Below, in pieces: positions 2,091-12,730 of a stretch of 12,868 nucleotides of DNA (positions are counted from its first letter, which is position 1; each line of letters begins with the position of its first letter). Origin of the DNA: Actinomycetota bacterium (lineage in GTDB: Bacteria > Actinomycetota > Actinomycetes > Actinomycetales > Microbacteriaceae); NCBI GenBank assembly GCA_016870695.1, contig VGAV01000031.1, forward strand, positions 1-12,868. Reading direction: 5' to 3'. The notes under the pieces are model-generated. The model was not told the origin of the DNA. It ran no database searches and worked only from the letters and a program-made list of their open reading frames with translations. A program made the translations under genes and the position numbers.

Positions 2091-2330
2091 ATGATCCCCC
2101 TCGACGAGCTGCTCGACTTCGAGCGGGCCTGGCCGCGGTGGAGCGGGCGCAAGGACGAGGCGATCCGCGCGCGCTTCGCCGTGCCGCCGGCGCGCTACTT
2201 CCAGATCCTGCACCGAGCCCTCGACTCACGTGACGCGGTCGAACTCGACCCCTTGCTCGTGGGCCGCCTGCGTCGGCGACGCGACATCGCTGCCACCGAG
2301 AGCGAGCGGCGGCGGGGGATGGCGTCCTAG
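2091..2330 (+). CDS. DUF3263 family small protein
   Basis: This 79-residue protein matches the actinobacterial DUF3263 pattern as I know it. LLDFERAWPRWSGRKDEAIR corresponds to 'xLDFERxWWxxxGxKExAIR', followed by ARYFQILHRAL for 'TRYYQxLNxLI' and DPLLVGRLRRRRD for 'DPMLVKRLRRLR'. It is all-helical and basic at the C-terminus. The function is not established; the helical layout and basic tail suggest a DNA-associated or regulatory role (inference). I chose the ATG at 2091 because GGCGGAGGA sits 7 nt upstream. A longer reading from 1935 would add 52 unrelated residues and run into the divergent gene. Host chromosomes carry this family, but this copy lies inside the prophage, about 190 bp before the att-like repeat. 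Confidence 0.8.
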   Translation: MIPLDELLDFERAWPRWSGRKDEAIRARFAVPPARYFQILHRALDSRDAVELDPLLVGRLRRRRDIAATESERRRGMAS

Positions 2331-2410
2331 GGGCGGAACATCCACCCGTCGTTCGTCGACGCGCGACGCGTCGCCCGCGGCCAACGCCGACGCGTGCGCG
2401 AGGCATCCGT

Positions 2411-2429
2411 TCACGGTTTACTCACGGTT
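2411..2429 (+). repeat. Direct repeat TCACGGTTT x2, possible recombinase arm sites
   Basis: TCACGGTTT occurs at 2411-2419 and again at 2422-2430, one helical turn apart (11-bp period). Together with the AAGTAC array further right it occupies the non-coding 190 bp left of the tRNA-derived core. That is where tyrosine-integrase arm sites, excisionase sites or an IHF-like site are expected. The role is inferred from position only. Confidence 0.35.
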
Positions 2430-2446
2430 TTGCCGTCGTACTCCTA

Positions 2447-2510
2447 TGTACTTCGGCGTACCGAAGTGCTGAAAACCCGCGGAAAGTACAGGGAAGTACA
2501 CATAAGTACC
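2447..2510 (+). promoter_or_regulatory. Integrase arm-type site cluster (AAGTAC repeats plus hairpin)
   Basis: AAGTACA, AAGTACA and AAGTACC start at 2484, 2494 and 2504, exactly 10 bp apart and so on one face of the helix. An inverted copy, TGTACTT, is at 2447-2453 and forms part of a perfect hairpin, ACTTCGG-cgta-CCGAAGT (2450-2467). The array stops 11 bp before the tRNA-derived core at 2521. Short repeats in helical phase next to a tRNA-end core are characteristic of arm sites bound by tyrosine integrases. No integrase gene is in the window; it should lie to the left. Confidence 0.6.
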
Positions 2511-2520
2511 TCGCACTGCA

Positions 2521-2558
2521 CAAACGGGGGTTGCAGGTTCAAGTCCTGTAGCCGGCAC
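2521..2558 (+). repeat. tRNA 3'-end att repeat, copy 1 (right end of left prophage)
   Basis: The 38-bp sequence is 37/38 identical to 5747-5784, differing only at 2541 (A here, G at 5767). It folds as the 3' part of a tRNA: T stem and loop GCAGG-TTCAAGT-CCTGT, then the acceptor strand AGCCGGC and discriminator A, with no encoded CCA. The 5' half (acceptor GCCGGCT, D arm, anticodon arm) is absent upstream, where the arm-type repeats lie instead. So this is not a tRNA gene but an attachment-site remnant. The acceptor resembles some bacterial tRNA-Thr (E. coli GCCGACT), but the amino acid cannot be assigned without the anticodon. Prophage lies on its left; the second element begins on its right. 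Confidence 0.85.
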
Positions 2559-2649
2559 GGAATCACAGGGATCGCAGCCCACGAAGAGCTGAAGTCATGT
2601 CAGGGTCGAATGAAGGACGCCGCGGGGAAAAGCGGTCTTTGCCCTCCAT

Positions 2650-2824
2650 GTGAGCGAGAGGTACGAACAGGAAGAGCCCGCAACGGCGGCCAAGAAGGGG
2701 TGCGGCCCTCCCGAGTGCAAGGGGCGCAGAACGGGAGGGCCACATCGAGTACTCGGGCCGAATGCTGTTCTGGTTTGGGGCTTGCGCTATCGTCCAGGAT
2801 GGTCGCAAGTTGTGCGGCGGATAA
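2650..2824 (+). pseudogene. Possible frameshifted small Cys-containing protein
   Basis: From GTG 2650 the frame reads a charged N-terminus and then KKGCGPPECKG. If one G of the GGGG run at 2721-2724 is removed, it continues as AEREGHIEYSGRMLFWFGAC and then AIVQDGRKLCGG, ending at TAA 2822-2824. The product would be 57 residues with Cys pairs CGPPEC and C...LCGG, suggestive of metal binding. Without the correction the frame runs on into the next gene as low-quality sequence. No good ribosome binding site precedes the GTG. I do not recognise a family, and the join is my reconstruction, so this is tentative. Confidence 0.3.
2704..2757 (+). repeat. Two mutually exclusive inverted repeats
   Basis: GGCCCTCCCG (2704-2713) pairs perfectly with CGGGAGGGCC (2732-2741). 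CCCGAGT (2710-2716) pairs with ACTCGGG (2751-2757). The left arms overlap, so only one hairpin can form at a time. GAGTACTC (2747-2754) is also a palindrome. No T tract follows. It may be a structured RNA, an attenuator-like element, or chance in GC-rich DNA. Confidence 0.3.
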
Positions 2825-2990
2825 TCATCGGTTCCTTGCCAGCCGTGGGTGAGCCATGTCAAGGGTGGAACGAAAGCGACGTCCACCGGGTGATGGTCAC
2901 AGCAGCCGTAGGGTCTGTTAGCGAGGTAGCTCCTCCGGCGCCTGCTACCTTCCTCGTTGGCGCCCCTCAGGCGCCGGATTTGGGAGTGCC

Positions 2991-3278
2991 GTGGGACAGC
3001 TCGTCTACGAACAGAAGTCCACCTTCGACATTGAGGACCGCTCCCTTGCGCACCTGCGCATCGTGGTTATGAACAAGCTTCGCCGACAGGAGTCGTTCAT
3101 GCTGCAGGTCCCGCACCGGGAGGTCGGCCACGTGAGCTTGTGGATGGCGCCGGGCATTCCTGTCGCGTTCCAATTCTCCGGCAGTCGGTCACCCCGCATC
3201 GACCGCGATCTTGTCGATGAGTGGATGCAGCAGGCCAGCGGTTCGGACGGGCTGTCCCTGACGAGTCGCGCTCAATAG
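2991..3278 (+). CDS. DUF7882-like small protein, copy 1
   Basis: This 95-residue protein starts at GTG 2991 with GGGAG 4 nt upstream. It has the layout of a small Microbacteriaceae family that I recall as DUF7882, often mislabelled 'ATP-dependent DNA ligase'. It opens with MGQLVYEQK, continues with IEDRSLAHLRIVVMNKLRRQ and ESF, then a strand-rich centre (HVSLWMAPGIPVAFQFSGSR), a helix (RDLVDEWMQQA) and the closing GL. No catalytic lysine motif (KxDG) of DNA ligases is present, so a ligase function is not supported; the function is unknown. It shares the skeleton MGxLxY..I.D..L.HLR.V...KLRR.ESF with the minus-strand copy at 3833-4171. Both lie in the segment bounded by tRNA-end repeats, so they were probably brought by the element. 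Confidence 0.75.
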   Translation: MGQLVYEQKSTFDIEDRSLAHLRIVVMNKLRRQESFMLQVPHREVGHVSLWMAPGIPVAFQFSGSRSPRIDRDLVDEWMQQASGSDGLSLTSRAQ

Positions 3279-3351
3279 GTGCCCGGGTGGCAGCTCGCGG
3301 TGCGGGGGACACAGGAAGAGCCGCCACCCGAGCGTGGGCGGATGTAGCACG

Positions 3352-3380
3352 GCAGATGTTGGGGGTCTGCTGTCTTTCTT
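3352..3380 (+). terminator. Weak terminator-like hairpin after DUF7882-like copy 1
   Basis: GCAGA (3352-3356) pairs with TCTGC (3366-3370) around a 9-nt loop and is followed by the pyrimidine-rich TGTCTTTCTT (3371-3380). It lies 74 bp past the stop of the DUF7882-like gene on the same strand. The stem is short, so confidence is low. Confidence 0.3.
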
Positions 3381-3485
3381 CGCTGACGGTACCGAGTCCC
3401 TCCCCGGGCCGCGACCGCTTACAGCACGACGCAGGACCGGTGCAGACCTGGCGCCTAAGGGAAAGCTCTCGCGCGAGGCGTGAGG

Positions 3486-3737
3486 TCAATCTGAGCGGTC
3501 CGGGCGCTCTCCGAAGACTTTTTCCATGAACGCAACTCGGAAACGTTCCTGGTAGGCGTTGTAGGCGACCTGGTGGGCGTGGCGCTCGGCCGGTTCCGCG
3601 GAGGCAGCCATCGGCACCGGCTCGTGGAACCGGTCGGTCAGAACTTCATCCAATGGGTAGCCGTACTCGTCGCGGATCATCCGCCTACGGTACGCGGCCT
3701 GGAGCATCGGCTCTAGTCCCGGGCGTGCGGGCCTCAT
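3486..3737 (-). CDS. Hypothetical protein, up to 83 residues
   Basis: I do not recognise this protein. It looks soluble and mostly helical, with acidic and aromatic residues: DEYGYPLDEVLTDRFHEPVP, then AERHAHQVAYNAYQERFRVA and FMEKVFGE. The amino acid balance is more protein-like than the competing frames. Start choice is uncertain. ATG 3737 is preceded by GGCGAGG with no spacer; internal ATGs at 3707 and 3680 (MIRDEYGYPL) are alternatives and would give 73 or 64 residues. It is convergent with DUF7882-like copy 1 and follows copy 2 on the same strand by about 95 bp, so it may be its operon partner. Confidence 0.45.
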   Translation of the reverse strand: MRPARPGLEPMLQAAYRRRMIRDEYGYPLDEVLTDRFHEPVPMAASAEPAERHAHQVAYNAYQERFRVAFMEKVFGERPDRSD

Positions 3738-3832
3738 CCTCGCCCGGGGGAATTGTGGTGAACCAGCTCAGGACTGAACGGGCGCCACCGTTCTGGTCGA
3801 CGTCGCGCTCGATCGCTGGGAGCGGTCGACAC

Positions 3833-4171
3833 TCAACGTCCGATAGATTGCGTGCTCGGTTCGGGAAGAGGGTGCAGGCCACGATTTCCGCCAGCCGATT
3901 CGGCCAGTTTGACGAGCCACGCCTGGTTCAGAGGGCGCTGCAGCGGGCTGTCGAAGTTGAAGTACAACGACGAGGCCTTCGAAATCCAGATCGTCCCGAA
4001 CGCGCCGCGACCCGGTACGGCGTCGTCACCGTTCACATCGGGCTCGTCGTCCCAGGTGAACGAGAAGCTTTCGTCTCGGCGGAGCTTTGTCACGATTACC
4101 GCGCGGAGGTGGTAGAGCGCCCAGTCATCGATGTTGATAGCCGGCGCAACGCCATAGATGAGGTGTCCCAA
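3833..4171 (-). CDS. DUF7882-like small protein, copy 2
   Basis: With the TTG start at 4169-4171 this is a 112-residue protein beginning MGHLIYGVAPAINIDDWALY, then HLRAVIVTKLRRDESFSFTW, matching the family start. An ATG at 4228 would add 19 residues that the family does not have and lacks a good ribosome binding site. The TTG has GAAGGG about 7 nt upstream, so I prefer it. Compared with copy 1 it has a longer acidic loop after ESF (DDEPDVNGDD) and then the usual strands (TIWISKASSLYFNFDS), a helix (LNQAWLVKLAESA) and GLHPLPEP. The function is unknown. The two copies are clearly diverged, so this is not a recent tandem duplication. An inverted repeat, GTCGAG-cggat-CTCGAC (4193-4209), lies just upstream and could be an operator. 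Confidence 0.7.
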   Translation of the reverse strand: MGHLIYGVAPAINIDDWALYHLRAVIVTKLRRDESFSFTWDDEPDVNGDDAVPGRGAFGTIWISKASSLYFNFDSPLQRPLNQAWLVKLAESAGGNRGLHPLPEPSTQSIGR

Positions 4172-4192
4172 CCCCTGACCCTTCGAGTAAAC

Positions 4193-4209
4193 GTCGAGCG
4201 GATCTCGAC
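4193..4209. promoter_or_regulatory. Inverted repeat upstream of DUF7882-like copy 2
   Basis: GTCGAG (4193-4198) and CTCGAC (4204-4209) flank the 5-bp spacer CGGAT. The repeat sits 21 bp upstream of the TTG start on the minus strand, next to a TTGAAC sequence (4216-4211 on the minus strand). A promoter with that -35 would start too close to the ribosome binding site, so only an operator role is proposed, and weakly. Confidence 0.25.
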
Positions 4210-4414
4210 CGTTCAAAGTACTGCTCATACCTTCGAGAACGCTGCAAGCCGATGGCCGTTGTTCCCGCGTCGAGCGCAGCTCGTGCCCCCTCCTGTGGGC
4301 GCGTCCTGCACCCTGCGAGCTCGGCAGCCCGGCGCATAGAGCCGGGATCGTCCGCCGCGCGGGGTCAAAATCTTCGGCCGCCTCGAGGTGAGGCAGCCGG
4401 GGACGGTGGATGGG

Positions 4415-4513
4415 TCAGCGGGTCCGGCGCAGCAGACCGACAACGACAACCGCGAAGGCGGCAGACGAGACGGTCGGAGCTGCCGCCAGGATGAGCAAAG
4501 TCAGCTCGGTCGT
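4415..4513 (-). pseudogene. Tiny membrane ORF (32 residues) lacking a normal start codon
   Basis: AGGAAGGGG (4528-4520), a strong ribosome binding site, is followed after 6 nt by ACG where a start codon is expected. The frame then reads TELTLLILAAAPTVSSAAFA and VVVVGLLRRTR to TGA at 4417-4415. This is a single hydrophobic segment with a positive C-terminus. The form fits the one-TM proteins encoded after tail genes in many actinophages, some of them holin-like. It lies on the same strand about 200 bp past the broken tail gene. Either ATG mutated to ACG and the gene is dead, or translation starts at the in-frame TTG (4498-4496), giving 27 residues. The family is unknown. Confidence 0.4.
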
Positions 4514-4603
4514 GGGACACCCCTTCCTATGGTCCAGGAAGGCCTGTGCGCGTCAAGATGGGGTTCGCTTGTAGTTGCGCGGCCTTCATCGGTCGTGGTC
4601 GAG

Positions 4604-4625
4604 AGCCCCGGTTGCCGCCGGGGCT
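4604..4625. terminator. GC-rich hairpin, terminator-like
   Basis: AGCCCCGG (4604-4611) pairs perfectly with CCGGGGCT (4618-4625) around TTGCCG. On the plus strand it is followed by TTCGTGTTT. On the minus strand it follows the broken tail gene (stop at 4710), with AAAGGAGG at 4642-4635 just before it. Hairpins of this form are common between actinophage genes. Confidence 0.4.
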
Positions 4626-4709
4626 TTCGTGTTTCCTCCTTTCGTGCGCGGAGTCCAGGTAGGGAGACCGCCCCACTGAGGGGGTCTGCCCAAATATGTC
4701 GGCACGAGG

Positions 4710-5637
4710 TCACGCTGCCGGCGCATAGCCGACAGACGCGGACGCGTGAGGGGCACCGCGCCAGATGCACCCCGGCATGTCGCCGTCGATGTAGGGCCCC
4801 GTGTAGACGCCCTCGATCACCGCCACCTCATCCCAATACGCGTTCCGTTCTCACCGCCGAGGCGAATTTCCATCGTCGATCCGGGCTGAGGGGTGAAATG
4901 CGCGCGCACCACTGTGGAACCGGGAGCGTTCGGAGCCTGGGGAGAGGCAGGCTGCGACGGCTGGATCGAGTAGATGCGGCGCGCCTGGAGGGAGTTCGAC
5001 GAGGGGTTGGGAATCACGGTGTCCTGCCAGTACCGACCCACGACGGTGTACGTCTTCCCGGTTTCCATGCGGACGGGTGGATTCGGCCCAGTATTCGAGT
5101 TCGCAATGAGCAGACCCGCCACGGCGTCAAACCCGGCGAGGGGTTCGATGCGACAGCGCGCACCGGCGCCCTTGTCCCACGAGAGAACCGGCACCCGCTG
5201 AGTCCGGTTCGGGGAGGTCACGCCTGCGACCTGAACGCCCAGCAGGACACTCTGACTGGCGTTCTCTGGGCCTGTCCAGAGGGGCGAAGGTCGGCGTCCG
5301 GGGTGGCGGAACCATCGAATCCAGCGCGCGCGACGCTGGACTTCTCGATGGTCACCTGATCGTGAACTACCCACTTCACGCCCGCGGCGAAGTTCCCGCT
5401 CCCGGTGCGGAGGGTGAGGCGTGCACCGCCGCCGTTCGGCATCACGTACGGTGCCGAGACGAGCGACTTCCTCTCGCCGGGCTGAATGGTCACTGAAGAC
5501 CCTTGTCCGTCGAACCCCACTGTGGGGCTCGCCGAGATGTACAGGTTCCAGTAGAACGTCAGCGCGGTGGCCCCGGCGGGCACTGAGACATCCATCGTCC
5601 CTACGACGGTCTCGCGTCGTAGCCATCGCATACCCAT
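4710..5637 (-). pseudogene. Phage minor tail protein, broken by two -1 frameshifts
   Basis: Three reading frames join into one protein. Frame A (5637 to about 5284) reads MDVSVPAGATALTFYWNLYI, then GFDGSATPDADLRP. Frame B (about 5281 to 4840) continues WTGPENASQSVLLGVQVAGV, then METGKTYTVVGRYWQD and GSTMEIRLGGENGT. Frame C (to TGA 4710-4712) reads YWDEVAVIEGVYTGPYIDGD, then MPGCIWRGAPHASASVGYAP. Restoring one C in the CCCC run (plus 5281-5284) and one base near 4839-4843 gives 309 continuous residues. FDGSxTPD...WTGxxNASxS and YIDGDxPxCxWRGxPHASxS are hallmark repeats of actinophage minor tail proteins, probably sugar-binding. The upstream frame is closed by a stop near 5706, and the 5' end lies close to the att repeat, so an N-terminal part may be missing. 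Two losses of the same kind suggest decay; sequencing error in short runs is the alternative. Confidence 0.8.
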
Positions 5638-5746
5638 CGCTTTGAGCGGTACGCGACGGTAGATGGCGGGATGCGGCGGGAGGCCGTGAGGCGAGGAAAG
5701 CCCAGGTCAAGGGATACTGCGGAAGATCACGGTACAGGTTGTCGCC

Positions 5747-5784
5747 CAAACGGGGGTTGCAGGTTCGAGTCCTGTAGCCGGCAC
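5747..5784 (+). repeat. tRNA 3'-end att repeat, copy 2 (mobile DNA / chromosome junction)
   Basis: This is the second 38-bp copy, 37/38 identical to 2521-2558, with T loop TTCGAGT in place of TTCAAGT. It again has T stem, acceptor AGCCGGC and discriminator A but no 5' tRNA half, so it is an attachment remnant and not a tRNA gene. To its right the sequence becomes ordinary chromosomal genes, so this is the likely outer right junction (attR) of the whole integrated region. No AAGTAC array precedes this copy, unlike the first, which suggests that the element to its left used a different integrase or has lost its arm region. Confidence 0.85.
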
Positions 5785-5790
5785 TCCCTG

Positions 5791-5805
5791 GACGGCTTCG
5801 CCGTC
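5791..5805. terminator. Hairpin GACGGC-TTC-GCCGTC between att and AraC gene
   Basis: GACGGC (5791-5796) and GCCGTC (5800-5805) form a tight 6-bp stem with a TTC loop, just past the stop of the AraC-family gene (minus, ending 5811) and 6 bp right of the tRNA-derived repeat. It could terminate the regulator operon on the minus strand, or be the original terminator of the host tRNA gene on the plus strand. No T tract follows on either strand. Confidence 0.4.
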
Positions 5806-5810
5806 GGGTG

Positions 5811-6755
5811 TCAGCCGCGCAGGACGTCGGACGGTCGTGAGCCGTAGGTCGCACGGAACAGCTCGGCAAAACGGCTCGGCGAGGTGAAGCCCCACCGTCG
5901 CGCGACATCGCTCACCGTGACGCCCGCCGTGGCGTCGCCGTCGTGCAGGTCGGCCCATGCCGCCGCCAGTCGAGCATTGCGCAGGTATGCCGTGGGCGAT
6001 ACACCCTCGGGATGGACGGCGCGGAACGCCGCGACGAGTTCACGAGTGCCCACACCGGCGGCCGCCGCCGCGTCGTCGATGGTGATGGGCAGCGAGGCGT
6101 GGGCGTGAAGGTAGTCCGCGGCGGTCCGGTACACGGCCTGCTGCCGGGCGGCCGAGCTGCGGAGGGCCTGTCGGTCGCCCCGGAGCCGGAAGGACTCCAG
6201 CGCCGTGACGGTGAGCATCCGGAGCATGCTCGCGCGGACCAGGTCGTTGCGCAGGAGTCCGGCATCCAGATGGACCCGTGCGAGATCAAAGGCACTGAGC
6301 CACACGGTTCCGCTCCCCGGTGTCGCCGGACGAGGACCGTCGAAGGCCAGCACCAGGTCCGGATCGCCGTAGATGCGGCGCGCGCTCATCTGCAGGGCGT
6401 CCGCATCGAAGATGACGGCGCGGTTCTCGTTGTCGGCGAAGTGATTGACGTAGGGGACGCCGGGCCGGATGAGCACCGGCTCGAGGGCCATGTCGCCGCC
6501 GTGGCGGCCCTCCTCCCAGGCGCAGCTGCTGATCGCGGATGCTACGACGAACTGGGCCACTTCGATGTCGACGCGGTAGGACCCCTCGAACCGCCCCGTG
6601 TGCAGCTGCACGCTCTCGGTGCCGGCGAGCTCCTGGTGGAACAGGCGCATCCCTCGGGTCAGCGCGACGGGGCCGTACAGATCGCGGAGGTGCTGCTCGG
6701 TCTCGTCCGGATCGGTGATGTCGACGCGGGTCTCGACGAAGTCCGAATCACTCAT
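5811..6755 (-). CDS. AraC-family transcriptional regulator (downstream gene of pair)
   Basis: This is a 314-residue DNA-binding regulator. The N-terminal two thirds form an AraC-type sensor domain (strands such as SVQLHTGRFEGSYRVDIEVA, and the RPG turn in LIRPGVPYVNHFA). The C-terminal 100 residues form the double helix-turn-helix of the family: ITIDDAAAAAGVGTRELVAA as the first unit (from about residue 223), and VTVSDVARRWGFTSPSRFAE followed by LFRATYGSRPSDVL as the canonical second unit. Its ATG (6755-6753) overlaps the TGA of the upstream AraC gene in an ATGA, so the two are translationally coupled. The effector is unknown; position next to sugar enzymes suggests a carbohydrate signal (inference). 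The frame stays open upstream of this ATG, but a fusion is not supported because the upstream gene uses another frame. Confidence 0.9.
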   Translation of the reverse strand: MSDSDFVETRVDITDPDETEQHLRDLYGPVALTRGMRLFHQELAGTESVQLHTGRFEGSYRVDIEVAQFVVASAISSCAWEEGRHGGDMALEPVLIRPGVPYVNHFADNENRAVIFDADALQMSARRIYGDPDLVLAFDGPRPATPGSGTVWLSAFDLARVHLDAGLLRNDLVRASMLRMLTVTALESFRLRGDRQALRSSAARQQAVYRTAADYLHAHASLPITIDDAAAAAGVGTRELVAAFRAVHPEGVSPTAYLRNARLAAAWADLHDGDATAGVTVSDVARRWGFTSPSRFAELFRATYGSRPSDVLRG

Positions 6756-7702
6756 TCCTGGCCGGCCTCCGTGCGGGCGAGCGTCTGCGAGGGGTTCTCG
6801 CCGAAGGTGCTGCGGTAGAGGGCGGCGAAGCGCGCGGCGTGAGCGAAGCCGCAGCGACGGGCGATCCCCGCAACGGTGTCTCCGGCTGCGGGGCTGCTCC
6901 GCAGAAGGGCGTGGCGCGCCTCGGCCAGACGGACGGCACGCAGATATTCGTGCGGGCTGGTCTGATACTCGCGAGCGAACGCGTTCTGCAGGCCGCGTAC
7001 GCTCATCCGCGCTGCGCGGGCGATATCGGCCGCGGTGATCGGACGGTGGGCGTTGTCGTGGATGAAGTCCCGCGCCCGACGGACGGCGACGGGCACCGTC
7101 GGGGGCGCCTCGAACGCGGCGTCCTCCCACGTGTGGGAGAAGCAGGCCAGGCTCGAGGTGACGATGAGATCGAGCAAGCTCGACGCGACGAGCGGCTCCT
7201 TTGTGGTGCCCGCCTCGATCGCGTGTTCGACCGCGTCCATGACGGCGTCCCAGTACCTGCCGTGCGACGGGGTGCGCGGACCGTGGCCCGTGAAGGCGAA
7301 GGCCCCGCCGCGGTGGGGGACGCGGTCGCGCAACTGCGCGAGGAAGACTCCGGTGTCGATCGTCAAGACGCGCGCGTGTGCGAGGTCGTACCGGCTCCGC
7401 AAGCCAGGGCGGATGAGGTACGGCTGCAGGGGGTCGACCTCGTCCCGGCCTACGCTCATGTCGCCGCGCATGCGAACGGCGCGAGCGAACATGAAGCCCC
7501 CGGTGTCCTCGACGGCGGTGGTCAGCGGCCGCCCGCCGATCGTGAAGTCGAGGAAACCGAGCCCCGACGGCAGCACGGAGGCGGTCATGGAGAACTCGAG
7601 CTGCTGACCTCGGGCGGAACCGATCTGCACGCCGGGGAAGTGCGTCTCGAGAGCGGCGACGGCGGCGTCGGCCTGGGTCGCGCTGCTGTGGATCGACGGC
7701 AT
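6752..7702 (-). CDS. AraC-family transcriptional regulator (upstream gene of pair)
   Basis: This is a 316-residue regulator with the same build as its downstream partner. An N-terminal sensor domain of about 200 residues (LEFSMTASVLPSGLGFLDFT; LIRPGLRSRYDLA) is followed by the helix-turn-helix pair PITAADIARAARMSVRGLQN (from about residue 221) and VAGIARRCGFAHAARFAALY with RSTFGENPSQTL. The ATG at 7700-7702 has AAAGGGGG about 5 nt upstream, a strong ribosome binding site. The two regulators share the RPG turn and overall layout but differ widely in sequence, so they are old paralogues. Transcription diverges from the glycoside hydrolase region. The 290-bp gap holds repeated ATCCG motifs and an inverted repeat that are candidate binding sites, making this pair the probable local regulators (inference). 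Confidence 0.92.
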   Translation of the reverse strand: MPSIHSSATQADAAVAALETHFPGVQIGSARGQQLEFSMTASVLPSGLGFLDFTIGGRPLTTAVEDTGGFMFARAVRMRGDMSVGRDEVDPLQPYLIRPGLRSRYDLAHARVLTIDTGVFLAQLRDRVPHRGGAFAFTGHGPRTPSHGRYWDAVMDAVEHAIEAGTTKEPLVASSLLDLIVTSSLACFSHTWEDAAFEAPPTVPVAVRRARDFIHDNAHRPITAADIARAARMSVRGLQNAFAREYQTSPHEYLRAVRLAEARHALLRSSPAAGDTVAGIARRCGFAHAARFAALYRSTFGENPSQTLARTEAGQE

Positions 7703-7717
7703 GGTCCCCCTTTCGGG

Positions 7718-7732
7718 TCACGCTAACCGTGA
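7718..7732. promoter_or_regulatory. Inverted repeat TCACG-ctaac-CGTGA, candidate operator
   Basis: TCACG (7718-7722) and CGTGA (7728-7732) form a 5-bp inverted repeat, extended by two further pairs after one mismatch (7715-7716 with 7734-7735). It lies 16 bp upstream of the AraC start codon, in the 5' leader or promoter of the regulator operon, so autoregulation is possible. Confidence 0.35.
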
Positions 7733-7780
7733 TCCGGAACGCGCAATATGCCATCCGCGAGACGCATCATCCGGATCACG
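7732..7780 (+). repeat. ATCCG direct-repeat cluster in the AraC-hydrolase gap
   Basis: ATCCGGAACGCG (7732-7743) and ATCCGGATCACG (7769-7780) match at 10 of 12 bases, with a weaker copy ATCCGCGAGACG (7753-7764) between them. AraC-family proteins typically bind direct repeats, so these are candidate sites for one of the two neighbouring regulators. This is inferred from position and pattern only. Confidence 0.35.
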
Positions 7781-7832
7781 CAGCCGGTGAGCGGCGGTGG
7801 GCGAGGAGGGGGGTCTGCTCGGGTGAATTTCG

Positions 7833-7862
7833 TTGCAGGCTTCCAGATGCCCTTCCTAGGGT
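7833..7862 (+). promoter_or_regulatory. Weak candidate promoter for the leader ORF and hydrolase
   Basis: TTGCAG (7833-7838) and TAGGGT (7857-7862) are spaced by 18 bp and fit the loose actinobacterial pattern TTGNNN / TANNNT. Transcription would start near 7870, leaving a leader of about 85 nt before the small ORF at 7955. Similarity to consensus is low. Confidence 0.25.
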
Positions 7863-7954
7863 GATCGCACACGCGCGGCTTCGCATGTATGCATCTCCTC
7901 CGCGCTATTCGAATCGCCTGGATCGTCCCGCCGGGACGGGGACGGAGCCTGCCC

Positions 7955-7996
7955 ATGATCACCTGCCCGCAGACCGACGACCGGGACGCGTCGTGA
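7955..7996 (+). CDS. 13-residue leader ORF overlapping the hydrolase start
   Basis: The ORF ATG 7955 to TGA 7994-7996 encodes MITCPQTDDRDAS. GGAG lies 7 nt upstream of its ATG, a better ribosome binding site than the one in front of the hydrolase GTG. Its stop overlaps the hydrolase start in GTGA (7993-7996), the usual arrangement for translational coupling. The peptide has no run of identical codons that would point to attenuation. It may simply deliver ribosomes to the GTG. The alternative is that the hydrolase starts elsewhere and this overlap is chance. Confidence 0.4.
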   Translation: MITCPQTDDRDAS

Positions 7997-9603
7997 GCGA
8001 TCTCCTCCGCTTCGCCACGAGCTCTCTCGCCTTCCCCGAGCCGACGACCGCACGGCCGCAGATCTCCCTGCCGCTGGTCGGCGTCGACGGACCCGTCGAG
8101 TGGACGGTCCGGCGCTTCCCCGACGACGTCGTCATCGCCTCTGGGGTCGCGCCCGCGTCGGAGAGCGGCACGGCCACGATCGTCCTCGAGCCGCGGGCGT
8201 GGGCGCCGGGCTACGTCCGGGTCGAGGCGGCATCCGGATCCCGGCAGGCGGCCGTGCCGTTGATCGTGCAGACTCCGCCCGCGGCGGACGGCTTCTTCGG
8301 CGGCGTCACGCTCTTCCCGCATTCCGACGACTCCGATCAGGTGGCGCAGCGCAAGGAGACGCCGAACGACCTCATTCCGGTGATGGGCGCGCTGGGGATG
8401 GGGGCGCTTCTCGACACGCTCCCGTGGTCGATCATCGAGACCACGCGCGGCGAGTACGCGTTCTCTCAATGGACCGACCAGATCGTCGAGCTGTGCCAGA
8501 AGCACGGCCTGCGCCTGACCCTCCGCTGCATGCAGAACAACCCGCTGTACAACGGCGGTGACTCCTCGCAGAAGGGGCTGACGCGCCTCCCGGGGACCGA
8601 CGAGGAGGTGACGGGGTTCACGAACTTCGTACTGGCGGCGCTCCGGCGCTACCCCGGCAAGGTCCACGCGGTCGAGCTGTGGAACGAGGTGAACAGCGCC
8701 TCGTTCAACTCGGGATGGTGGCCCGACGCGGACGCGCGGACGATCCTGCCCCTGCTCCGGGCCGCCCACACCGCCATCGCCGACGAGTTCCCGGACGTCC
8801 AGGTGCTGACGCCCGGGGCGGTCGGAACCGGTGTGCAGACGGCCGGCGAGTTCTGGAAGCAGTTCATCGAGGAGGGCGGCCTCGAGCACTGCGATGCCAT
8901 CAGCGCGCACCCGTACGAGCAGTCGCCGCGGCAGTTCCGGGCGCTCATGAAGGCCCTCAACAAGAAGATGATCGCCGTGAACGGCGCGGTGCACCCGGTG
9001 GCGTTCACCGAGGCGGGCTGGTCGCGGGTGGTCCCGGATCCGACCGGCGGCAACGGCGCCTGGGTCCGCACACTGCACGCGCAGGCGATGGCGCTCGTCC
9101 ACCTTCTCGTGGGCGCGCAGGAGTTCGCTAACGTGTCGAGCGCGTTCTGGTACAACATGGTCGACTCCTGGTGGGACGACCCCGGCGGAACCGAGAACAA
9201 CTTCGGCCTGTTCGTGCTGCGCGGGAACGCGTCGGATGCCGACCGTCCGAAACCCGTCGCCTGGGCGTTCGCGCGACTGCGTCGGGAGCTCGCCGGCGTC
9301 GCGTTCCACTCCGTCCGCTCCTTCGACGACGGGGGTCGTCACGTGGACGTCTTCCGGTTCACCGGGGGAGGGCGCACGCGGCTGGTGGCCTGGACGACAC
9401 CCGACCAGATCGACCCCTATCCCGACGAGCTGCGCAGCGCGCGCGCCGGGGACGGCGCGGTGTCGCTCCCGGTCAGCGCCGTCGTCGCCGACGGGGAGCG
9501 CATCACCGGCATGCGGGACATCTACGGCGATGCCCTCGTCGTCGACGGCGCCGTGACGCTGTCGTTCACGCCGGCCTACATCGACGTCGTGAAGGCGACG
9601 TAG
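7993..9603 (+). CDS. Glycoside hydrolase, clan GH-A TIM barrel, no signal peptide
   Basis: From GTG 7993 this is a 536-residue enzyme in three parts: an N-terminal beta-sandwich (to about residue 98), a TIM barrel (about 100-430) and a C-terminal beta domain. The acid/base is Glu232 in AVELWNEVN (the Asn-Glu pair of clan GH-A), and the nucleophile is Glu340 in VAFTEAGWS. Their 108-residue spacing is typical of retaining clan GH-A enzymes. Other barrel features include HGLRLTLRCMQNNPLYNGG and ISAHPYE. The exact family (GH5- or GH39-like among others) and the substrate cannot be read off. No signal peptide or membrane segment is seen, so it should act in the cytoplasm on imported glycosides. 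The frame extends upstream to 7729, but that part is Arg/Pro-rich and non-protein-like; GTG 7993 overlaps the leader ORF stop. It is divergent from the AraC pair and convergent with the amylosucrase gene. Confidence 0.8.
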   Translation: MSDLLRFATSSLAFPEPTTARPQISLPLVGVDGPVEWTVRRFPDDVVIASGVAPASESGTATIVLEPRAWAPGYVRVEAASGSRQAAVPLIVQTPPAADGFFGGVTLFPHSDDSDQVAQRKETPNDLIPVMGALGMGALLDTLPWSIIETTRGEYAFSQWTDQIVELCQKHGLRLTLRCMQNNPLYNGGDSSQKGLTRLPGTDEEVTGFTNFVLAALRRYPGKVHAVELWNEVNSASFNSGWWPDADARTILPLLRAAHTAIADEFPDVQVLTPGAVGTGVQTAGEFWKQFIEEGGLEHCDAISAHPYEQSPRQFRALMKALNKKMIAVNGAVHPVAFTEAGWSRVVPDPTGGNGAWVRTLHAQAMALVHLLVGAQEFANVSSAFWYNMVDSWWDDPGGTENNFGLFVLRGNASDADRPKPVAWAFARLRRELAGVAFHSVRSFDDGGRHVDVFRFTGGGRTRLVAWTTPDQIDPYPDELRSARAGDGAVSLPVSAVVADGERITGMRDIYGDALVVDGAVTLSFTPAYIDVVKAT

Positions 9604-9679: not shown

Positions 9680-11587
9680 TCAGCGCAGCGTCACGCGCAG
9701 CCAGAGCACCCCGTGGGCGGGGATGTCCAGGCCGCCGGCCACGCCGACCTCCTCGCCCGAGACGAGGTCGACGGCATCCGGTTCCAGGCCCGACAGCGTG
9801 AGCGCGTCGACGTGGACCGCCCCGTCCGCCACGTTCGCGAGCACCAGCACCGCGGATCCGACCCCCGGACGCAGAAAGCCCACGACGGAGGCCACGGGGG
9901 TGCCGAACCCGATCAGCGTGTTCCCCGCGAACTCCGGCGTCTCGCGGCGGACGGCGATGAGCCGCGCCAGCCGGGAGAAGACACGGCCGGCCGGGGTGTC
10001 GGCATCCCTCCGGTCCGCGTAGTTCTGCGCGGGTCGGTGCGGCCGGTGCACCCACCGGCTGTCGCCCGCCTCGTGCGGGTCGTCCGCGTACGAGTAGTCG
10101 TTGAGCTGGGCGACCTCGTCGCCCAGATAGAGCAACGGGATGCCGCCGGTCGAGAGCGCGAGGGCGTGCGCGAGCACCACGCGGTCCTCGCCGCCCGCAT
10201 CCCCGGCCTCGATCCCGGCGAGCGAGGCGGTCGTGCCCGTGACCCGGGCGTCGCCGGTGCGCGGGTTCTCCTGGAACGGGACCCCGCGGGCGAACGTGCC
10301 GTCGTGACGGCCGACGTAGAAGTCGTTGAGGAACCGGCGGTGCGGGTACCCCTCGATGCCGAGCTCGGCGGCATCCTCGTCCGCGAAGGTCCAGCCGATG
10401 TCGTCGTGACTGCGCACGTAATTGACCCACGCGGTGCCCGCCGGCAGAGTGTGGCGCCGCTCGAGCGCCTGCTGCAGCAGCCGGCCGTCACGGGTGGCGA
10501 GCGCCTCCCAGGTGAGGGCCATCTGCAGCGGGTTGTAGGAGATCTGGCACTCCTCCGGCGAGATGTAGGAGACGACCTCGTCCGGGTGGACGATCGCCTC
10601 CGACTTGAACAGCAGTCCCGGCGCGGCCATCGCGAGGACGGCGTTGAACGCTTGCAGGAGCAGGTGCGCCTCGGGCAGCGACTCGCACGTCGTCCCGAGC
10701 TGCTTCCAGATGAACGCGACGGCATCCATCCGCAACACCTCGACGCCCTGGTTCGCCAGGAACAGCATCTCCCCGGCCATCGCCTCGAAGACCGCCGGCT
10801 CGGCATAGTTGAGGTCCCACTGGAAGTGGTAGAACGTCGCCCAGATCCACCGTCCGTCCGGCAGCTGCACGAACGAGCCGGGGTGGTCGTCGGGGAAGAT
10901 CTCTCGGGTGGTCCGCTCATAGGCGTCGGGCATCGTCCGGTCCGGGAAGATCAGGTAGAAGTCCTCGTACCCCGGCACGCCTGCGACGGCCTTCTGCGCC
11001 CATTCGTGCTCGTTGCTCGTGTGGTTGAAGATGAAGTCGACCACGAGCGAGATCCCTGCGCGCCGGAACTCCGCGGCGAGGTCCGCCAGCTCCGCCATCG
11101 TGCCGAGCCGCGGGTTCACCCGCCGGTAGCTGGACACCGCGTACCCGCCGTCGCTGTTGCCCTCGGGGCTCTCGAACAGGGGCATCAGGTGCACATAGCT
11201 CAGCCCCAGCTCGCGGAAGTAGGGGATCTGATCCCGGATGCCGCGGAGCCCACCGGCATAACGGTCGACGTAGCAGACGCCTCCGAGCATCCGCTCGCTC
11301 TCGAACCAGGTCGGATTCGCCACGCGGGCGTCGTCGAGGGCGCGGAGCTCGGCCGGCCGTTCGGCCCACGACCGGCGGGCGAGGTCGACGACGGATGCCA
11401 GGCGCTCGGCGCCGTCCGCCCGCTCGCCGTACAGCCGGCGGAACAGGTCGTGAAGGCGCGGCAGCTGCGCCTCCGCCCGCACGAGGAAGGAACGGTCCGC
11501 GCCGGCGGCGCGGGCCGCGCGCAGGATGCGGGAGACGTCGGCGGCGGAGTCGGCACGGAGCTGGGGCACAACCACACCCTGGCGCAT
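9680..11587 (-). CDS. Amylosucrase-type enzyme (GH13, sucrose-using glucosyltransferase)
   Basis: This 635-residue protein is closely amylosucrase-like. Amylosucrase (EC 2.4.1.4) uses sucrose to build alpha-1,4-glucan and releases fructose. The catalytic triad is present: nucleophile Asp288 (VLRMDAVAFIWKQ), acid/base Glu330 (FKSEAIVHPDEVV) and transition-state Asp395 (VNYVRSHDDIGWTFADED). Each is two positions beyond the Neisseria polysaccharea residues (286, 328, 393 from memory). Other family blocks are YVHLMPLFESPEGNSDGGYA, GGIPLLYLGDEVAQLND, and an N-terminal helical domain of about 100 residues. The ATG at 11585-11587 has GGGGAGGG 5 nt upstream and is preferred over an ATG at 11611. There is no signal peptide, so the enzyme is cytoplasmic. 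Related GH13 subfamily members may mainly hydrolyse sucrose or make other glucosides, so polymer formation is not certain. Confidence 0.92.
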   Translation of the reverse strand: MRQGVVVPQLRADSAADVSRILRAARAAGADRSFLVRAEAQLPRLHDLFRRLYGERADGAERLASVVDLARRSWAERPAELRALDDARVANPTWFESERMLGGVCYVDRYAGGLRGIRDQIPYFRELGLSYVHLMPLFESPEGNSDGGYAVSSYRRVNPRLGTMAELADLAAEFRRAGISLVVDFIFNHTSNEHEWAQKAVAGVPGYEDFYLIFPDRTMPDAYERTTREIFPDDHPGSFVQLPDGRWIWATFYHFQWDLNYAEPAVFEAMAGEMLFLANQGVEVLRMDAVAFIWKQLGTTCESLPEAHLLLQAFNAVLAMAAPGLLFKSEAIVHPDEVVSYISPEECQISYNPLQMALTWEALATRDGRLLQQALERRHTLPAGTAWVNYVRSHDDIGWTFADEDAAELGIEGYPHRRFLNDFYVGRHDGTFARGVPFQENPRTGDARVTGTTASLAGIEAGDAGGEDRVVLAHALALSTGGIPLLYLGDEVAQLNDYSYADDPHEAGDSRWVHRPHRPAQNYADRRDADTPAGRVFSRLARLIAVRRETPEFAGNTLIGFGTPVASVVGFLRPGVGSAVLVLANVADGAVHVDALTLSGLEPDAVDLVSGEEVGVAGGLDIPAHGVLWLRVTLR

Positions 11588-11642
11588 CGACGCCCTCCCC
11601 GGCGACTTCAACGCGCGGAGACGTCCCGCGGCGACCCGTTCC

Positions 11643-11707: not shown

Positions 11708-11791
11708 GAGACCGTCGCGACGGACGAGGGCCGCCCGGGCCGTAGCATTCTCGATGGCCCTCGCGTGTGCAGCGGCCGGGAAGGACGTCCT

Positions 11792-12730
11792 GTGGACGAG
11801 CGTCGGACGGTCGGCATCGCCGTGATCGGCGCCGTTGTCATCGGCGCCCTCACCGCGCTGCAGGCCCGGATCAACGGCACGCTCGGCGCCGAGATCGGCG
11901 ACGGCATCTACTCCGGCGTCATCTCGTTCGGCTCCGGGCTGCTCATCCTCATCGTCCTGTCCGCGCTTGTCCCCGAGGGGCGCCGCGGATTCGGCCGTCT
12001 GGTGGGCGGCATCCGGGACCGCCGAATCCCGCCGTGGATGCTCATGGGCGGGATCGTCGGCGCCTTCACCGTCGCCAGCCAGGGACTGACGGTCGCGACG
12101 ATCGGAGTGGCTCTGTTCACCGTCGGCTTCGTCGCGGGCCAGACCGCCGGCGGACTCGTGCTCGACCGGGTCGGCTACGGACCGGCCGGCGTCGTGCCCA
12201 TCACCCCGGGGCGTCTCGTCGGCGCACTGCTGGCCATCGTCGGCGTCGTGGTCTGCCTCGCGGGAGACGACGTCCGCGGTGTGCCCGTCTGGATGCTGAT
12301 CGTCCCCGCGATCGCCGGTGCGGGCGTCGCCTGGCAGCAGGGGACGAACGGGCGCCTGCGCGTCCGCGTCGAGAGCCCCCTGACCGCCACCCTGGTCAAT
12401 TTCATCGGCGGGACGGCCGTCCTGCTTCTCGCGGCCGTCGTTCGCGCGGTCTTCACCGGTCTCCCCGACGCCCTCCCGCCCGAGCCGTGGCTCTACCTCG
12501 GCGGCGCCGTCGGGGTGACGTACATCTTCCTCTCCGCGATCGTGGTGCGCCGCACCGGCGTGCTGCTGCTCGGCCTCGGCTCCGTCGTGGGGCTGCTCGC
12601 CACCTCGGTCGTGCTCGACGCGCTGTGGCCCGCCCCCGCCGCGCCCTCCACGCTCGTGGCGATCATCGCCGCCGCCGTGGCGATCGCGGGGGTGGCGGTC
12701 GCCGCCGTGCCCTGGCGCCGCCGCGGCTGA
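11792..12730 (+). CDS. DMT-superfamily transporter, two-domain YdcZ type
   Basis: This 312-residue protein has about ten hydrophobic segments in two similar halves. The first half begins AVIGAVVIGALTALQARING with LGAEIGDGIYSGVISFGSG. The second begins LIVPAIAGAGVAWQQGTNGR with LTATLVNFIGGTA. This repeated 'QxxxNGxL...A...F..G' pattern is that of the YdcZ (DUF606) family of inner-membrane exporters in the drug/metabolite transporter superfamily. Many actinobacteria carry fused two-domain forms of this length. The GTG at 11792 has GGGAAGGA 6 nt upstream. The frame is open far to the left, but that part is antisense to the amylosucrase gene. It is transcribed divergently from the amylosucrase gene, with a symmetric operator-like array between them. 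The substrate is unknown; co-regulation with sugar metabolism is possible but not shown. Confidence 0.85.
   Translation: MDERRTVGIAVIGAVVIGALTALQARINGTLGAEIGDGIYSGVISFGSGLLILIVLSALVPEGRRGFGRLVGGIRDRRIPPWMLMGGIVGAFTVASQGLTVATIGVALFTVGFVAGQTAGGLVLDRVGYGPAGVVPITPGRLVGALLAIVGVVVCLAGDDVRGVPVWMLIVPAIAGAGVAWQQGTNGRLRVRVESPLTATLVNFIGGTAVLLLAAVVRAVFTGLPDALPPEPWLYLGGAVGVTYIFLSAIVVRRTGVLLLGLGSVVGLLATSVVLDALWPAPAAPSTLVAIIAAAVAIAGVAVAAVPWRRRG

Follow-up and report, generated by a model that had tools for sequence, protein, structure and literature searches.

Among the described systems closest to the locus considered here are the tandem islands at a single transfer RNA (tRNA) or tmRNA gene in the Islander collection (PMC4383910), which lists 3919 islands, with 3760 at the 3' half of a tRNA gene and 159 carrying a 5' fragment, and 125 tandems of two or more islands, 4 of three or more. 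The pTN3-like archaeal elements are described (PMC8371274) as integrating into the 5' half of tRNA genes, and actinophages (PMC10865867) as integrating at the tRNA 3' half across a common core of 30-45 bp. The present locus lies in Microbacterium, within a stretch of 12,868 nt (the window) that is the whole of contig C31 in a 654-contig draft genome (G000) of 3.19 Mb and 88% completeness. The window carries two copies of the 3' part of tRNA-Thr(TGT), which are very probably the right attachment sites (attR) left as scars by two elements, prophage A and element 2, in the 3' part of one such gene, with another element, element B, in the 5' half. Tandem integration alone is ordinary and each part of the arrangement has a precedent; what is added is that the 5' half of the same gene is also occupied. 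No report of one tRNA gene occupied at both halves was found in the titles and abstracts of the openly licensed literature searched, which does not imply absence from print.

As in the Islander tandem islands (PMC4383910), the tRNA gene appears rebuilt and displaced 3' fragments mark the end of each element; unlike them, element 2 has no recognised integrase and a further element lies in the 5' half of the gene. The integrases found for the tandem members amount to a fragment for prophage A, at its end on contig C250, and none for element 2, which is a relic and not a complete tandem member. With the pTN3-like elements (PMC8371274) and the 5'-fragment islands of Islander, element B would share a chromosomal attachment site (attB) formed by the 5' half and element DNA upstream of the rebuilt tRNA; unlike the pTN3-like elements, the host here is Microbacterium and the 3' part of the gene is occupied too. 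The actinophages of PMC10865867 have a 3' core of similar length (35 nt here), putative arm-type sites alongside and a rebuilt tRNA, in other hosts and other tRNAs. The tRNA-dependent lysogeny outlined in that source, with a short core, a tRNA that is not rebuilt and a phage-borne replacement, is not the pattern here and was rejected, as the cores measure 35 and 39 nt and the junction holds an intact, rebuilt tRNA.

The two 38-bp sequences, copy 1 (2521-2558, + strand) and copy 2 (5747-5784, + strand), match at 37 of 38 positions with a single A/G difference, as the first-pass annotation had reported, and form a repeat family (D3) of 95% identity over 41 nt. A chance repeat is rejected by shuffling: with up to 3 mismatches allowed, the 38-bp pattern is found twice in the window and on average 0.00 times in 200 shuffles. 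Their proposed identity as a tRNA 3' end also stood, each comprising the 3' side of the anticodon stem, the variable loop, the T arm and the acceptor of tRNA-Thr(TGT), for which the reference intact gene is L012:2338-2413 on contig C250, L012 being the locus of this genome on that contig. ARAGORN found no tRNA gene and Rfam no gathering-level match in the window, thus the 5' half is missing at both copies, as had been claimed. Copy 1 has 35 nt in common with the intact gene without mismatch, and both copies start with CAAAC where the intact gene reads AATAC, so their left edge is non-tRNA sequence. The copies are in one orientation and both match the C250 tRNA, but as that gene is on another contig its orientation relative to them depends on inferred joins. 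The differing base sits in the T loop, at position 57 in standard tRNA numbering, and had been proposed as a possible sign of which copy came from which element. This proposal fails because intact genes of the genus have either base (A in G009 and G210, for instance, and G in G001, G018, G022 and G071) and the crossover point is not fixed; it is the flanks that tell instead. In G086 the left attachment site (attL) has A and attR has G, which suggests, without fixing, the side of the crossover.

A 30-nt tRNA 3' end occurs three times in the genome, twice in the window and once on C250 within the intact tRNA-Thr(TGT) gene at 2338-2413, which is the only intact tRNA with such an end that the search of the genome gave; a 47-nt pattern spanning the anticodon arm likewise matched once when 3 mismatches were allowed. 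As the draft is 88% complete, a further intact copy elsewhere in the genome is possible. An intact tRNA adjoined by a tyrosine integrase had been predicted, and the C250 gene is flanked by two, both with Phage_integrase domains. On its 5' side is intB, which ends at 2010, 0.3 kb from the tRNA, and on its 3' side is the C-terminal part of intA (C250 3964-4593, - strand), cut by the contig end and with PF00589 at L012:3964-4485.

The flanks of the copies were compared with those of relatives by local alignment, each score being set against the highest among shuffles. The 200 nt left of copy 1 score 53 against G210 (shuffles up to 30) and 36 against G086 (up to 25). Within this flank is a putative arm-type integrase site of prophage A (2413-2434, + strand), the identical 22 bp of which also occur about 60 nt 3' of the intact C250 tRNA, with a similar site in both the attR and the attL of G210. 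Since the flank resembles that of G210 and the arm-like site is on both ends, copy 1 is best assigned to an intA-type prophage. The 200 nt left of copy 2, which hold a putative arm-type site of element 2 made of CCATCGC repeats (5612-5643, + strand) common to the attR of G071, score 44 against G071 (shuffles up to 29), and by this flank copy 2 is assignable to a G071-type element. Compared with each other the two left flanks score 17, against a shuffled mean of 17.5, which is chance. As the flanks are unlike and each is like the attR of another relative, the copies come from two different element types.

Occupied sites of the same form are found in relatives. In the 366 genomes of the genus, over which all genus-wide counts were taken, the 3' remnant form starting AAACGGGGG is present in five, twice in G000 and once each in G071, G086, G177 and G210, with the remnant 42.2, 3.2, 43.9 and 36.0 kb respectively from the intact tRNA. 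The remnant patterns, 3' and 5' alike, are strict, so these genome counts are lower bounds. A looser pattern, the exact 30-nt 3' end, matches in 133 of the 366 genomes and is present in at least two copies in 19 of these, which by eye divide into five with a spacing of 65-137 bp, 11 at 1.2-44 kb, two split across contigs, and G000. Together the two element types, the occupied sites in four relatives and the empty sites described below support the proposed sequential integration, and tandem integration at one tRNA gene is, as judged from the sequences compared, well supported.

Prophage A is related, by an integrase of 89% identity over 203 aa and the common arm site, to the prophage in the same tRNA of G210; identity of intA is 72% to the integrase of G177, 69% to that of G086 and 44% to that of G071. 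In G210 and G086 the integrase adjoins the tRNA, in G071 it adjoins the remnant, and in G177 it is inside the element some 14 kb from the tRNA. The right end of prophage A occupies 1-2520 and begins with the C-terminal part of a tail-spike-like protein (79-384, + strand; phrog_29706, E 2.6e-06, residues 54-101 only), followed by an acyltransferase (362-1636, - strand; Acyl_transf_3, PF01757, E 7.8e-32) and, as last gene before the attachment site, a DUF3263 protein (1935-2330, + strand; PF11662, E 6.6e-19). A DUF3263-like gene is at the same place inside the attR of G210 (L039:8953-9207, 59%). The prophage end that had been placed left of copy 1 is borne out by the tail-spike-family and DUF3263 open reading frames (ORFs), although DUF3263, being present in many relatives' loci, is a weak phage marker on its own. 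The two ends of prophage A are on separate contigs, the Phage_integrase domain on C250 and the tail-spike match on C31. In G086 this site holds an element of very small size, a 3.2-kb segment with an integrase (L037:8621-11862) between tRNA and remnant; a further ORF in it is, by look, a candidate ImmA/IrrE-type peptidase.

The evidence for element B is outside the window. A search of the genome for the tRNA 5' half returned C250 and C89:6470-6491. On contig C89 a TAGACT box like that of relatives is followed by tRNA nt 1-39 and then by a break-off. The gene left of this remnant is 72% identical to the gene directly 5' of the G210 tRNA and 71% to its counterpart in G009, and the sequence to the right encodes a protein that matches the tape-measure protein of the element in G005 with 40% identity across 804 aa. 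The C89 5' half is, by these neighbours, best taken as the displaced host half beside the left flank of the chromosome, with element B on its right. The 5' remnant form is found in five of the 366 genomes (G000, G005, G101, G103 and G218), and in the last four the displaced 5' fragment and the intact tRNA are at the two ends of the element within one contig, 16.3, 8.0, 15.9 and 3.3 kb apart; in G000 they are on C89 and C250. An intB relative is 5' of the intact tRNA in each, with a gap of about 0.1 kb in G101, G103 and G218, against 0.9 kb in G005 and 0.3 kb in G000, and with 64% identity to intB in G101 and G103, 62% in G005, and 72 and 55% in G218 for two pieces in different frames, the gene there being broken. 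The elements of G005, G101 and G103 are marked as phage-like by hits in families of head, terminase, tape-measure or replication proteins. Both remnant forms, 5' and 3', occur together in G000 alone. An ORF between intB and the tRNA in G005 (L025:8961-9647) is an Abi-type candidate by look, with no PHROGs match.

The rebuilt tRNA would be transcribed from element-B DNA. A TAGACT/TAGAAT-like box lies about 85-120 nt 5' of the tRNA in the ten leaders read by eye. Ten element-B leaders (L012, L025, L069, L072-L074 and L079-L082) have an inverted repeat (6-bp stem, 4-nt loop) that ends 3 nt before the tRNA. All 60 of 60 cells pair in the ten sequences, which is reached in none of 500 shuffles; the count of double-change pairs is equalled in 91 of 500 shuffles, with the changes confined to two of the ten sequences. 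Folding of leader plus tRNA in two leaders gave z of -1.31 (G000) and -3.41, with the predicted G000 fold lacking the hairpin. The leader hairpin of element B is thus a lead only.

A profile built from four intB members recovered 16 loci in GTDB genomes. Seven of these are 76-123 nt 5' of tRNA-Thr(TGT), with a 5' remnant found in four of the seven when flanks were examined; five lie 3' of tRNA-Met(CAT), L085 among them at a distance of 1.1 kb, with a 3'-half remnant in two of the five when the DNA was examined; and four are next to neither tRNA. In a tree of 20 integrases the groups using tRNA-Thr and tRNA-Met are related, and L085, a tRNA-Met user, branches from an unresolved node within the tRNA-Thr users. 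As a single origin of the 5' users is found in 19% of 200 bootstrap trees, the tree gives no firm number or direction of side switches. In both user groups the repeat ends or begins at AA(T), the 3' edge of the anticodon loop, which suggests that one crossover region may be used in opposite orientations by tRNA-Thr and tRNA-Met users.

Empty sites are found in four relatives (G009, G007, G016 and G020), each with one exact copy of the tRNA 3' end. The genes that follow there are those at the right end of the window, an alpha-amylase-family enzyme (9680-11611, - strand; PF00128) and a DMT_YdcZ exporter (11783-12730, + strand; PF04657), with 82-84% and 72-82% identity respectively to genes in the tRNA loci of these four. 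In G009 the tRNA (L019:9432-9505) is followed by the alpha-amylase-family gene at 9929 and then the exporter (83% and 72%), and the pair is 0.9 kb from the tRNA in G016, 1.9 kb in G020 and 2.7 kb in G007; in G210 it lies beyond attR. Between copy 2 and this pair are two AraC-type regulators with HTH_18 and HTH_AraC Pfam domains (5811-6755 and 6752-7702, both - strand) and, to their right, an unassigned ORF of 539 aa (7984-9603). These three genes have no match in the tRNA loci of 17 relatives (L013-L029, E up to 1e-6); a relative of the second AraC gene (57%) is near the G233 tRNA, inverted. Intact genes do stand right of copy 2, as the first-pass annotation had it, with the qualification that 5811-9603 is unmatched in those 17 loci and synteny begins at 9680. 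Of the predicted empty site, a tRNA followed by the gene pair of the window was recovered in four relatives and the exact junction of tRNA and position 5785 was not.

Element 2 (2559-5746) is an eroded relic between the copies and consists of two DUF7882 genes (2991-3278, + strand; PF25355, E 5.3e-30; and 3833-4228, - strand; PF25355, E 3e-25), a stretch without a recognised gene and an orphan ORF (5218-5637, - strand) without Pfam or PHROG match, for which no phage match was found and a search of 5.8 billion proteins returned only the window's own. No integrase was found in the four ORFs scanned with Pfam and PHROG, and six-frame pieces of at least 35 aa gave no match to the integrase genes of the compared loci. 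DNA of 2200-5800 gave no match to phages. Of 38 genomes searched with 2450-5900, 20 gave matches, of which the longer fall on the DUF7882 genes and on the tRNA end, and 4300-5746 was not found as a unit in the 366 genus genomes, 22 of which have matches, the longest besides its own being 92 bp. About 2.2 kb in from the tRNA end of the G071 prophage lies a DUF7882-like gene, which fits a relic formed by deletion. DUF7882 or DUF7882-like genes are seen close to tRNA-Thr(TGT), on its 3' side, whether or not an element is inserted there (L023, L108, L045 and the window at 2991-4228).

The locus would have arisen by a tyrosine integrase recombining an element's attachment site (attP), which carries a tRNA 3' part, with the gene; as attP brings the 3' part, the gene would be rebuilt beside the incoming element and the old 3' part pushed to the element's far end. 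In this way element 2, now a 3.2-kb relic, would have left copy 2 and prophage A copy 1. Element B would have come with its own version of nt 1-39, the 5' half, leaving the host 5' half beside the left-flank genes on C89. Contig C89 holds the 5' remnant junction, C250 the tRNA between two integrases and the window the two scars, and the order would run from the left chromosomal flank through the 5' remnant and element B to the working tRNA, then through prophage A with copy 1 and element 2 with copy 2 to the right chromosomal flank, in which we infer the joins between contigs and the action of the enzymes as described. The order proposed earlier (intact gene, prophage, remnant, element, remnant) keeps its tandem part, but with a third element in the 5' half the array does not begin on the left with the intact tRNA, and what stands for its second element is the worn remains of element 2. 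Element 2 would be the oldest, judged by its erosion. The result is probably a working tRNA gene with mobile DNA on both sides and rebuilt by mobile DNA.

A number of points weigh against this reading. C89, C250 and C31 are three separate contigs, and in none of the relatives compared does an empty site join the tRNA exactly to 5785. For prophage A, the left flank of copy 1 scores 28 against G177, barely above its shuffles (up to 27), a 12-kb piece out of the central G210 prophage gave no more than two short weak matches in G000, and the right flank of C250 resembles that of G210 weakly, with a score of 29 and no shuffles for that pair. An acyltransferase 43% identical to that at 362-1636 is directly 3' of the empty tRNA in G006 (L013:9217-10443), thus the genes left of copy 1 need not all be phage-borne. 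For element 2, the topology fits its arriving first or entering copy 1 itself later, and its own left end would lie right of copy 1 but is not recognised, as 400 nt there score 18-23 against the right flanks of five attL (shuffles up to 26-32). DUF7882-like genes also stand directly 3' of a single-copy tRNA in G022 and G233, and this would fit most of 2559-5746 being host DNA, with its DUF7882 genes, that was trapped between the scars after rearrangement, only the part near copy 2 being element-derived. The DUF7882 proteins of the window are moreover closest (54-67%, compared loci) to relatives' genes far from the tRNA. However, the DUF7882 genes are to the left of copy 2 and thus on that side of the scar where the element is, and a gene of this kind is also found inside the tRNA end of the G071 prophage, so that trapped host DNA is judged unlikely, though it is compatible with two scars in one gene.

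A single prophage integration, with copy 2 a later duplication of copy 1 and its flanking DNA, would be in keeping with the copies spaced 65-137 bp apart in five genomes, where short local duplication may occur, but it is rejected on the unrelated left flanks, each like the attR of another relative, and is very improbable. Short arrays of the tRNA-Thr 3' part, spaced about 64-137 bp, are found in G059, G069, G100, G226 and G309; one is after the tRNA at L021:10204-10301 and in L032 one is after an attR. Repeats and phages are frequent points of misassembly and the draft is in 654 contigs, yet an artefact joining unrelated phage and host pieces deserves hardly any credence, as the junction types recur: G210 shows that of copy 1, G071 the arm of copy 2, and G005, G101, G103 and G218 the ends of element B, some of them inside contigs of more than 1 Mb.

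With two elements in the 3' part and element B in the 5' half, it may be suggested, tentatively and at somewhat less than even chances, that the tRNA gene has been captured from both ends, one element having supplied its promoter region, its leader and its 5' half, and another its 3' part. As the intB family is elsewhere at the 3' half of tRNA-Met, its lineage may have switched sides, by way of the near-palindromic anticodon stem-loop used in the opposite orientation, and the leader hairpin may keep the captured tRNA working. Genes for tRNAs are classic entry points of phages and islands, mostly through the 3' half. The tRNA-Thr(TGT) gene here offers two docking sites that do not overlap, one at nt 1-39 and one at about nt 40-74 along the gene, so that unrelated elements can share it, and provides a direct system for the choice of side by integrases, the expression of a captured tRNA and the independent excision of two elements.

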